This document shows positions 14,715-16,630 of a stretch of DNA of 20,907 nt, one piece after another. The stretch's first letter is position 1, and every line of letters starts with the position of its first letter. Under the pieces are notes generated by a model that had not been told where the DNA came from, did no database searches, and saw only the letters and a list, made by a program, of their open reading frames with translations. The translations under genes and the position numbers were made by a program. Source of the DNA: a virus; the IMG/VR virus record IMGVR_UViG_3300043446_001197, positions 1 to 20,907 of that record. One strand, 5' to 3'.

Positions 14715-15380
14715 ATGGGACGACCAGCCAAGTACCGCAACGCAGACGACCTCATCAACAACTGCACCATCAAGCAAACCTGTTTCATCTGGAACAGCGA
14801 CAAACTACCTTCACCACTCATCAGTCCGGTTTCACCACTCGCCAAAGTGATGGGAACCAACTCGGTAGTCCGAATCCTATTCTCTCTTTGCAGACACATA
14901 CCTGCCTCAACGCGAATGGTGAAATGGTGCAACACACCATTCTGTGTTAATCCGTATCATCACACCGAGACGCGTGACATTGTGAAACGCAGGCTTCGAG
15001 CAGAGGAGAACCTCCGAGGCTCAGGGCGGGAGTTGCTCCCCGAACAGGAATCGGTCAGGCATTTACTTCCATCGGATGCTGATCTCCTCCCACTCAAACC
15101 ACGCGACCCTTATGTCAATGAGATGCTCCGCGCTAGTTCAGAACTAGCGGGCTTTGATGCTCGGAACATGGCGCAGACCATGTTGGTGAATAAGGGAGTG
15201 CCGACCGCGCAGGACGACAAGCCCGTTCTAGTGATGCGCTCACTTGTGGAGAAGCAGAAACGCGAAGCCGAGGCGCTCGCCAACCCCATAACCCCTGAGA
15301 AACTAGACGAGGACTGGGCAGAGATCGAGAAACTGTTTGCCCATATTGGCACTAGTAAAAACCCGAACCCAACCCCCTAA
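14715..15380 (+). CDS. 221-aa protein with degenerate HNH_3-like domain
   Basis: The start is set by AAGGA 5 nt before ATG. The first ~90 residues follow the plan of HNH_3-type phage endonucleases: TCFIWNS (22-28) where these have CWIWTG, then HIPASTRMVKWCNTPFCVNPY (61-81), then HHTET. The usual form is G-x-I-P-x-x-x-x-V-x-H-x-C-x-N-P-x-C-V-N-P-x-H-L. Here the first, catalytic His before WC is replaced (VKWC), so nuclease activity is doubtful while the Cys/His zinc-type frame is partly kept. Residues 95-221 are charged and helical with no known domain. It may be a DNA-binding regulator derived from an HNH enzyme. Confidence 0.75.
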   Translation: MGRPAKYRNADDLINNCTIKQTCFIWNSDKLPSPLISPVSPLAKVMGTNSVVRILFSLCRHIPASTRMVKWCNTPFCVNPYHHTETRDIVKRRLRAEENLRGSGRELLPEQESVRHLLPSDADLLPLKPRDPYVNEMLRASSELAGFDARNMAQTMLVNKGVPTAQDDKPVLVMRSLVEKQKREAEALANPITPEKLDEDWAEIEKLFAHIGTSKNPNPTP

Positions 15381-15395
15381 AATGCGAACACGCTA

Positions 15396-15424
15396 TTGAC
15401 AAAGTCTAATTTGTATGCTATAAT
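15396..15424 (+). promoter_or_regulatory. Consensus sigma70 promoter A (extended -10)
   Basis: TTGACA (15396-15401), a 17-nt spacer and TATAAT (15419-15424) with TGC before it: a full consensus on both boxes plus extended -10. It shares AAAGTCTAAT in the spacer with promoter B at 16586. It drives the small-gene run from 15542. Confidence 0.93.
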
Positions 15425-15440
15425 CTACTTTAGTAGATTA
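15421..15440. promoter_or_regulatory. Operator-like palindrome A overlapping the -10
   Basis: TAATCTACT-TT-AGTAGATTA: perfect 9-bp arms with a 2-nt centre, starting inside TATAAT and covering the expected start site. A dimer bound here would block RNA polymerase. Confidence 0.75.
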
Positions 15441-15481
15441 GATGGTAGAGCGAAGCAATACTAACTAACTACTAACGCGTC

Positions 15482-15510
15482 GAACTTATCGAATCCAATT
15501 CGATTTGTTC
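15482..15510. repeat. 29-bp palindrome, copy 3
   Basis: GAACTTATCGAA - TCCAA - TTCGATTTGTTC. The left arm has TT where a perfect palindrome needs AA. It ends 31 nt before the ATG at 15542, between promoter A and that gene. Confidence 0.92.
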
Positions 15511-15541
15511 GATACCCTTAAATCCTATATTGGAGATCGCT

Positions 15542-15709
15542 ATGAGAGTTGATATGACAAATACCGACCGCTTTGTATCCTTGGAGGAAGCGCAGATGGA
15601 GGAGGTCAGCGAGCAGAACCACGGCTCGCACACCTCCGTGTCCGGAAGCATCTATTCCTACACCGACTGGTTCTATGACGGTGACGAGTCCGCCTTTGAG
15701 TTGCACTAG
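15542..15709 (+). CDS. 55-aa acidic small protein
   Basis: ATTGGAGATCGCT gives a good SD (GGAG) before ATG. The protein starts MRVDMTNTDRFVSLEEAQME and ends DWFYDGDESAFELH, net acidic, with many Ser/Thr/Tyr. I do not recognise it. It is the first gene behind promoter A and palindrome copy 3, so it should be made strongly and early. Small acidic early proteins of phages often inhibit host enzymes, but no specific target can be inferred here. Confidence 0.65.
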   Translation: MRVDMTNTDRFVSLEEAQMEEVSEQNHGSHTSVSGSIYSYTDWFYDGDESAFELH

Positions 15710-15718
15710 GGGGCGCGT

Positions 15719-15919
15719 ATGAGTGAAGCCGATTGGATTCTAGAAGACCTGACTAGAGCGTTGCGTTGGGCAATGTTCTACGCGGAGCATGGGCACGAGT
15801 CCATGCACCCAAAAGAAACCTACGAACGGGACGGCAGGGTGGCGCTCAGCGTTGCCCACGCTCGTCGGGCGTTGTCGCTTGGTGAGGATTACCTTGCTTA
15901 CATCAAGAAGGGTAAATAA
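15719..15919 (+). CDS. 66-aa small protein of unknown function
   Basis: The start follows AGGGGGCGCGT, a G-rich SD, 9 nt after the previous stop. The sequence MSEADWILEDLTRALRWAMF, then YERDGRVALSVAHARRALSL, then GEDYLAYIKKGK is helical and amphipathic, with a central charged turn containing His/Glu. No family is recognised. It belongs to the small-gene run driven by promoter A. Confidence 0.7.
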   Translation: MSEADWILEDLTRALRWAMFYAEHGHESMHPKETYERDGRVALSVAHARRALSLGEDYLAYIKKGK

Positions 15920-15921
15920 CC

Positions 15922-16143
15922 ATGCAGTTACGCTCAGCCAACTTCGCCACCGCACAGGTGGCTAGCAAGTGCAACCCCATCATCATTGCGTTCGACCGCA
16001 ACTGGCGGGAGTTGTATCGCGCCCCCCTCAACCTCATCGACGGCATGACCCACGCGGTTCGTCGTGACTACGAGAGCGGGCATCGCGGGATGCGCCTCAA
16101 CACCGCGTCCATCAAAGTCCATGCTTGGTCAACCCCGAACTAA
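15922..16143 (+). CDS. 73-aa small protein; stop codon lies in a palindrome copy
   Basis: The gene starts 2 nt after the previous stop, with only a weak SD (AAGAAGGG) inside the upstream gene, so translation is probably coupled. The sequence (ASKCNPIIIAFDRNWRELYR; HAVRRDYESGHRGMRLNTAS) suggests a small alpha/beta protein; no family recognised. It ends ...STPN, and its TAA is positions 5-7 of the 29-bp palindrome copy 4. Confidence 0.7.
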   Translation: MQLRSANFATAQVASKCNPIIIAFDRNWRELYRAPLNLIDGMTHAVRRDYESGHRGMRLNTASIKVHAWSTPN

Positions 16144-16165
16144 TCGAAACCAATTCGATTTGTTC
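16137..16165. repeat. 29-bp palindrome, copy 4 (contains a stop codon)
   Basis: GAACTAATCGAA - ACCAA - TTCGATTTGTTC. The TAA of the preceding gene is inside the left arm. It ends 21 nt before the ATG at 16187. Confidence 0.92.
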
Positions 16166-16186
16166 ACAACCTGAAAGGAAATCAAA

Positions 16187-16393
16187 ATGCAGGATAGTTT
16201 TTTAGAGCGCTTGGAGCGCCACAAAATATCCATCGAACACCTAGCGGGCGCGGGTGACGGTGGTGCTGATGTGTGGGTAGCGGAGAAGACTTCTCACCCA
16301 TACGCGTGTGGGCAGGGGCGCACACCCTCGGAAGCCCTGAGTAATTTGTTCTCAGATTTAGATCACGAACTTAACAAGGAGATGGAGAAATGA
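16187..16393 (+). CDS. 68-aa small protein of unknown function
   Basis: AAAGGAAATCAAA provides the SD. The protein (MQDSFLERLERHKISIEHLA, GADVWVAEKTSHPYACGQGR, TPSEALSNLFSDLDHELNKE) has a helix-strand-strand-helix look with a TPSEAL...L ending. This resembles small HicB-like or phage 'WVAE...G.T..EAL..L' proteins, in which a short sheet precedes a final helix. That similarity is weak and no function is proposed. Confidence 0.72.
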   Translation: MQDSFLERLERHKISIEHLAGAGDGGADVWVAEKTSHPYACGQGRTPSEALSNLFSDLDHELNKEMEK

Positions 16394-16412
16394 AAGTACG
16401 AGGGGGACAACG

Positions 16413-16589
16413 ATGATTAAGAAACCCACCGAGAAAGAATGGGTTGAGTTTGATTTGAAGAACCCACCGAAGTTTGATGTGGAGGATATCGATATCGAGC
16501 TCGACCTCGTGGACTGCTACACAGTAGAGGAAATGGTGCGCGTGTTAGATGCGCGAACTCAACGCCTCAAAACGCGAACTGCCACTTGA
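16413..16589 (+). CDS. 58-aa acidic small protein
   Basis: The ATG follows CGAGGGGGACAACG, a G-rich SD. The sequence (MIKKPTEKEWVEFDLKNPPK, FDVEDIDIELDLVDCYTVEE, MVRVLDARTQRLKTRTAT) is acidic in the middle and basic at the end. Its TGA overlaps the -35 box of promoter B (TTGACA), so the gene and the promoter abut exactly. No family recognised. It is the last gene of the first small-gene run. Confidence 0.6.
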   Translation: MIKKPTEKEWVEFDLKNPPKFDVEDIDIELDLVDCYTVEEMVRVLDARTQRLKTRTAT

Positions 16590-16614
16590 CAAAGTCTAAT
16601 CTTTATGCTATAAT
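16586..16614 (+). promoter_or_regulatory. Consensus sigma70 promoter B (extended -10)
   Basis: TTGACA (16586-16591), 17-nt spacer, TATAAT (16609-16614) with TGC before it. The region from about 16570 to 16614 is nearly identical to promoter A (AAAGTCTAAT and TATGCTATAAT shared). It drives the zinc-ribbon gene and probably the AAA+/VWA genes. Confidence 0.93.
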
Positions 16615-16630
16615 GTACCTTGGTACATTA
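16611..16630. promoter_or_regulatory. Operator-like palindrome B overlapping the -10
   Basis: TAATGTACC-TT-GGTACATTA: perfect 9-bp arms, same position and centre as palindrome A, but with changes at arm positions 5 and 9 mirrored in the other arm. Confidence 0.75.

Follow-up and report, generated by a model that had tools for sequence, protein, structure and literature searches.

What reads a palindrome laid across the start site of a phage promoter, and how can its symmetry persist when its sequence does not? The question is raised by IMG/VR record IMGVR_UViG_3300043446_001197, a partial virus genome of 20,907 bases analysed here at its full length (the window), in which two consensus promoters (P1 and P2) each run into a 20-bp palindrome (O1 and O2) centred near the expected transcription start (+1). 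The phages concerned are a large uncultured group, here called freshwater phages. A gene encoding an HNH-like protein lies immediately upstream of P1, and a separate 29-bp near-symmetric dyad recurs eight times in the window, once in the leader of a gene for a helical protein (gene 12808). The explanation that we regard as probable, though some way short of secure, is built from sequence comparison: a dimer of the HNH-like protein would occupy the +1 palindrome as its operator and the gene-12808 protein would act at the independent dyads (coordinates are collected in Table 1).

Close relatives were retrieved from IMG/VR through ATPase, terminase and HNH-like searches. Sixteen relatives (G001-G016, several of them 58-66 kb in length) were read whole, making 17 records with the window, and ten further contigs, including L209, L214 and L226, were read later. 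A nucleotide search of phage records with the window gave no match, and an exact IMG/VR pattern search for the palindrome together with its promoter returned zero matches, because the relatives differ at the arm ends or in the spacer.

P1 and P2 are the only sites between positions 12000 and 20907 that match the sigma-70 consensus at 12/12 positions; the sites found there numbered ten in all, against a chance expectation of 9.7. The initial annotation had described both as perfect TTGACA-17-TATAAT promoters with an extended -10 element and a common spacer start, and so they proved: TG precedes the -10 in each, both read TTGAC-AAAGTCTAAT, and the two 84-nt promoter cassettes are 79% identical to each other.

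The palindromes themselves, TAATCTACTTTAGTAGATTA at O1 and TAATGTACCTTGGTACATTA at O2, are both perfect, and they differ from each other, as had been described, at arm positions 5 and 9, each change being matched in the opposite arm. The same behaviour extends across the group. Promoters of like build in related phage contigs number 42 distinct examples with 24 different operators, all with arms of 8 bp and a gap between the arms of 3, 4, 5 or 6 bp. Arm pairs are complementary in 181/192 cases, compared with 151.1 +/- 3.4 (maximum 165) in 10,000 arm shuffles, a procedure that leaves relatedness in place; what gives the result its strength is how many kinds of compensated pair occur. These are found at six of the eight arm positions: C-G, T-A and G-C at position 1, A-T and G-C at position 2, A-T and C-G at position 3, G-C, C-G and A-T at position 5, A-T and G-C at position 7, and C-G and T-A at position 8. 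Although the arm spacing ranges from 3 to 6 bp among the relatives, the left arm keeps its place on the -10 element in every operator.

Some of the compensated pairs involve bases of the -10 hexamer, which precedes the expected transcript. Positions 3-6 of the -10 make up the first four bases of the arm; the bases that mirror them are found past the start site, in DNA on which sigma places no demands. A TACAAT -10 is accompanied by a far arm that ends in G (with one exception), TATACT by a far arm that includes GAGTA, TATGAT by one that includes ATC and TAGAAT (in L226) by a far arm that ends in C. Mirrored changes within the -10 box therefore point to a DNA operator rather than to a leader hairpin and, because a consensus -10 starts transcription near the centre of the palindrome, the RNA would carry a single operator arm. 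We hold with high confidence that the palindrome is a DNA-level operator. The view taken at the outset, that selection acts on the symmetry at the level of DNA and that a DNA site fits better than an RNA hairpin, is thus supported; further copies lacking symmetry would have spoken against it, and symmetry is kept in the 24 differing operators of the related phages. In most P1 promoters a further arm of the operator's own type follows within 46 nt of the operator: a downstream GTAC is present in 15/19 P1 promoters of GTAC type and 0/7 of CTAC type (p = 5e-4), a downstream CTAC in 7/7 of CTAC type and 1/19 of GTAC type (p = 1.2e-5).

The HNH-like protein is fast-evolving, with 33-63% identity to the G001 protein among its members, whereas the nearby MoxR-type ATPase is 74-96% identical to that of the window. 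Four residues, C23, C72, C77 and H82, are invariant in all 17 aligned proteins and are putative zinc ligands. Two residues ahead of C72, where the catalytic histidine would be expected, one protein retains it and the other sixteen have a different residue, Lys70 in the window. The phrog_1872 endonuclease family is matched by 14/17 members (best E 1.2e-4), the window's own protein matching only weakly (E 0.13). An AlphaFold model is confident over approximately the first 150 residues. Foldseek found nothing significant with this model, and VIA-align placed seven DNA-bound SMAD MH1 chains on top (7/9 rows) at a weak Z of 3.0-3.3; a Pfam MH1 match in one member (E 0.36) is not significant. A proposed origin of the MH1 domain is the degradation of a homing endonuclease (Grishin 2001, as cited in PMC4999995), and we treat the likeness of the predicted model to MH1 as a lead, not proof. 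No HNH-like relative was found in a one-genome-per-species bacterial and archaeal collection with the one short pattern used.

The evidence that links this protein to the operator comes from the outer base of the operator arm. This base tracks the tree of the HNH-like gene and not that of the neighbouring ATPase, requiring two changes on the former and five on the latter. Residue 70 is lysine upstream of nine distinct promoters, all with outer A, and in front of the 21 promoters that lack outer A it is never lysine (Fisher p = 6e-6, the rows not being independent); three promoters have outer A without lysine. In the window and in L020 the lysine type is accompanied by outer A at both P1 and P2, the latter some 0.4-1.2 kb further on. 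Both records are nested among relatives with arginine and outer G, T or C, and their nearest relatives by ATPase have neither lysine nor outer A. On these grounds the HNH-like protein is the likeliest candidate ligand and regulator of the operator, a proposal for which we judge the case to be evenly balanced.

A 29-bp palindrome and a small gene were initially noted to follow both promoter cassettes. The copies downstream of P1 and P2 are real, but since this pair makes up only two of the eight copies in the window, the palindrome is a separate, dispersed element rather than a component of a duplicated cassette. The 17 records contain 128 copies, each record having 4-10 of them, and none lies outside a region of about 10-12 kb that surrounds the operator promoter. 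Three of the recurrent positions are leaders, namely those of gene 12808, of the ATPase and of a downstream nuclease-like gene; the others are an intergenic stretch 1.3 kb before P1, a point 69-87 nt beyond the P1 -35 and the interior of the VWA-like gene. The geometry is a constant, near-symmetric 12-5-12 with genome-specific arms, the cores seen being CGAC, CGAA, CAAC or CCCT. The arm is GAACnnATCGAA in the window and G007, GAACnnnCCGAC in G001, G006, G009 and G015 (and in G008 with a changed outer base), GAACAnACCAAC in G005 and G016, GGAAnnATCGAC in G003, G004 and G010-G014, and GGAAnnACCCT in G002; the copies of one genome change in concert, in both arms. An RNA hairpin would favour G.U mismatches. 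On the transcribed strand the dyads show 45 G.T against 33 A.C mismatches (p = 0.21), with 115 other mismatches, at scored positions, and several copies lie inside ORFs. By both measures the dyads behave as DNA sites.

The likeliest ligand of the dyads is the gene-12808 protein, which we consider slightly more probable than otherwise on the strength of residues that change with the dyad type. Arg119 and Arg123, one turn apart in a predicted helix, are invariant in 28/28 sequences of CGAC type. In the CGAA type positions 119 and 123 hold A/D/S/E and E/N, and in the CCCT type K and A. The CAAC type keeps both arginines and has WQSP in place of FxRP; among the contigs read later, both expectations held, WQSP being present in L209 with its CAAC dyads and FERP in L214 with its CGAC dyads. 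Under the same column filter the HNH-like protein yields one such column per class. It does not follow the dyad type: the operator CAATGTAT-CTTTAG-ATACATTG and a similar HNH-like protein occur with CCGAC dyads in L067, L081 and L214 and with CCAAC dyads in L068, L071 and L209. When 76 ORF groups were compared with dyad type in a Mantel test on whole proteins, gene 12808 came third (partial r 0.47); since structural genes outrank it, the residues were used in place of this ranking. Foldseek found nothing significant with the gene-12808 model, and the VIA rows for this helical protein, being ordinary helix matches, were discounted.

How well does the proposed pairing of two proteins with two sets of sites stand up? 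Several points weigh against it. Adjacency alone could carry the HNH-like gene and P1 together, so that linkage and shared descent could account for part of the association, and a test on independent pairs, with too few supported pairs (two), fell short of significance. Arm spacing of 3-6 bp is not easily tolerated by a rigid dimer. The HNH-like model has weak structural matches in VIA-align (Z 3.0-3.3) and no significant one in Foldseek. For the dyads, L226 has dyads of CGAC type and carries Asn at gene-12808 position 119, so Arg119 is not essential, and columns 39 and 53 of the protein likewise change in both exception classes. Finally, two other conserved small proteins could also be ligands: a 74-aa XRE-type helix-turn-helix (HTH) protein and a 57-aa ribbon-helix-helix (RHH)-like protein. 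That the +1 palindrome is the operator of one of these, the HNH-like gene being merely linked to it, is rather unlikely, albeit to be taken seriously. The XRE protein is found in 15/16 relatives, with Pfam HTH_3 matches above the cut-off in 3/17 records, and the RHH-like protein, whose fold was recognised by eye and has no Pfam match, in 14/16, with two variable residues in its putative DNA-facing strand. By inspection, however, the XRE recognition helix is almost invariant though the operators vary, the RHH-like strand residues sort independently of operator type, and both genes are some 4-18 kb distant.

Other accounts of the palindromes fare less well. The dyads do often stand 20-90 nt before start codons within operons, as RNA hairpins serving leader processing, antitermination or translation control might, but this account is most improbable: in the +1 palindrome the left arm takes in most of the -10 hexamer and precedes the point where transcription is expected to begin, and the dyads have strand-balanced mismatches, an unconserved loop and inner 2-3 nt, and copies in coding sequence, with no family matched in an Rfam search. 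The adjoining protein is HNH-related, and homing endonucleases such as I-TevI bind promoter-overlapping operators (PMC2988022), which would suit a palindrome that is the cleavage or homing site of this protein and symmetric for cutting rather than regulation; with the catalytic histidine position otherwise occupied in nearly all members and the sites intact in genomes that carry the gene, we think this very doubtful. We give hardly any weight to a promoter that works in both directions through mirrored -10 elements. The right arm does often have ATTA, which mirrors TAAT, but a mirrored TATAAT requires ATTATA and TA follows none of the listed right arms that end in ATTA; moreover, the symmetry runs 4 bp past the -10 into GTAC or CTAC, and -10 variants are mirrored even when they weaken a -10. 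As for the dyads, their clustering over about 10 kb and their constant, dimer-like form would also fit partition, replication or packaging sites without a regulatory role. Their positions nonetheless follow gene leaders and P1, and a search for a partition protein, which was not systematic, recognised none; we regard such a role as unlikely.

The explanation that pairs the HNH-like protein with the +1 operator and the gene-12808 protein with the dyads would work as follows. The operator promoter, of consensus sigma-70 strength and the main early promoter, would fire early; a phage-encoded dimer would then bind across the -10 and the start site, occlude RNA polymerase and shut the promoter. For this dimer the best candidate is the product of the HNH-like gene just upstream, a putatively disarmed, homing-endonuclease-like zinc finger. 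The position of the operator would suggest repression rather than activation. Symmetry would be kept despite changes in sequence because, as we propose, operator and protein evolve together. The dyads would be a second, independent set of DNA sites, bound by the gene-12808 protein as repressor or roadblock, and together they would damp transcription through the early region. Because no integrase was found (no tyrosine integrase in the 17 records and no serine recombinase in nine, some records being fragments), lytic-cycle timing is more likely than lysogenic immunity. A bolder version, which we advance tentatively and with some doubt, is that a disarmed homing-endonuclease-type HNH protein has been domesticated as the master regulator of the lineage's early promoter, alongside an independent dyad array with a new helical reader. 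Here the former catalytic position would have become a specificity residue, and operator and protein would co-evolve because of it.

A lambda-type early promoter has a palindromic dimer operator over the -10/+1 region of a strong sigma-70 promoter, with the regulator gene adjacent. The present locus resembles it in promoter strength, in the overlapping palindromic, dimer-type site and in the neighbouring candidate regulator gene, but the candidate is a dead His-Me finger rather than a helix-turn-helix protein and the site is a single near-perfect palindrome with one downstream half-site. The GIY-YIG homing endonuclease I-TevI, which still cuts, represses its own gene via a promoter-overlapping operator (PMC2988022). 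The candidate here would likewise be a homing-endonuclease-type protein at such an operator; unlike I-TevI it is HNH-like, lacks the catalytic histidine and would target a promoter downstream of its own gene. With SMAD MH1 it would share the status of a zinc-binding His-Me-finger remnant, and DNA-bound MH1 chains are the best structural matches to its predicted model, although the alignment is weak, the sequence match is not significant and the protein is of phage origin.

The repressor sites of mycobacteriophage L5 and Cluster A phages are asymmetric 13-bp sequences in temperate phages; a monomer binds them, they point in the direction of transcription and they occur throughout the genome (PMC9283540, PMC6550527). 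The dyads resemble the L5 operators and stoperators in being many copies of a genome-specific, lineage-dependent site at promoters and between genes, but they are 29-bp and near-symmetric, are confined to about 10 kb and belong to phages without a detected integrase. We do not class them as L5-type stoperators because, when tested as asymmetric, oriented sites, they were found not to be such; by analogy, we propose that they may function like stoperators and the +1 site like a phage early operator. The dispersed 22-bp intergenic repeats of the lytic phages T1 and Stevie, whose function is unknown, are asymmetric and transcription-oriented (PMC4319613); they share with the dyads a regulatory look, but the dyads are symmetric and also lie within genes.

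About two dozen operators and their candidate regulators, complete with mirrored changes and lineage swaps, make up a series provided by nature. Should the HNH-like protein indeed bind the operator, a path from selfish endonuclease to transcription regulator would be shown, and operator-protein pairs would make the evolution of specificity directly testable; if the domestication is also real, prokaryotes would offer a parallel to the way in which the SMAD MH1 domain is proposed to have arisen. The dyad array adds a second candidate DNA-binding family with three specificity switches visible in sequence.

Table 1. Features of the window, with positions counted from its first base
Feature	Position	Strand	Remarks
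Gene 12808, 237-aa helical protein	12808-13521	+	Candidate dyad-binding protein; dyad about 36-46 nt before start in most relatives where found
HNH-like (His-Me finger/treble-clef) protein, 221 aa	14715-15380	+	Candidate operator-binding regulator; in 16/16 relatives G001-G016
MoxR-type AAA ATPase	17037-18113	rightward	
DUF2201/VWA-like protein	19059-20378	rightward	
Promoter-like site TTGACA-17-TATGAT	14636-14664	+	Upstream of HNH-like gene; without +1 palindrome
P1, TTGACA-17-TATAAT, extended -10	15396-15424	+	12/12 consensus match; kept immediately 3' of HNH-like gene in relatives
-35 dyad GAC-AAA-GTC (TTGACnnnGTC)	15398-15406		Common to two other early promoters in most sampled genomes
Operator O1, TAATCTAC-TTTA-GTAGATTA	15421-15440		Overlaps -10, centre near +1; mirrored changes across 24 operators
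Half-site CTAC	15469-15472	+	Downstream of O1 and of same type as its arm; weak alone
P2, TTGACA-17-TATAAT, extended -10	16586-16614	+	12/12 consensus match
Operator O2, TAATGTAC-CTTG-GTACATTA	16611-16630		
29-bp dyad, copy 1	12741-12769		Leader of gene 12808
29-bp dyad, copy 2	14062-14090		Intergenic
29-bp dyad, copy 3	15482-15510		86 nt downstream of P1 -35 (69-87 nt in relatives carrying it)
29-bp dyad, copy 4	16137-16165		
29-bp dyad, copy 5	16652-16680		Downstream of P2
29-bp dyad, copy 6	16977-17005		Leader of MoxR-type ATPase
29-bp dyad, copy 7	18236-18264		Inside an ORF
29-bp dyad, copy 8	19642-19670		Within DUF2201/VWA-like gene, likewise in relatives

The left part of the window carries terminase, portal and capsid-region genes on the minus strand. 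The terminase has kin at about 50% identity in phages such as HTVC027P and DSL-LC04. In the stretches read of HTVC027P, HTVC023P, DSL-LC04 and 023Pt_psg01, all terminase relatives, there was no comparable dyad array or operator promoter, and no cultured relative carrying the module was found in the collections searched. In the early region the MoxR-type ATPase and DUF2201/VWA-like genes lie near each other, an arrangement that resembles cellular MoxR-VWA pairs. Between gene 12808 and the HNH-like gene, about 800 nt (13836-14635) hold one dyad and no convincing gene, possibly an origin or a regulatory RNA; a terminator-like site is present at 13527. Of the two small proteins considered above, the XRE-type protein (G001:18537-18761 and orthologues) has as its neighbours, in almost every genome, a conserved 296-aa protein on one side and a large primase-like protein on the other, and the RHH-like protein (G001:5167-5340 and orthologues) is conserved save for the two residues of its putative DNA-facing strand.

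The GTC of the -35 dyad is present in 37/42 operator promoters, and sufficiently complete genomes have about three promoters with TTGACnnnGTC: the operator promoter, a second some 6.5-9 kb downstream before the nuclease-like gene, and a third about 12-18 kb downstream. The +1 palindrome is limited to the first of these (and P2 where present); a genome has one or two such promoters, located just behind the HNH-like gene. In seven records (G003, G004 and G010-G014) exactly 6 nt separate the end of the -10 of the promoter about 6.5-7.8 kb downstream of P1 from the ATG of the nuclease-like gene, whose transcript is therefore expected to be leaderless; in the remaining records this distance is 12 or 20-22 nt.

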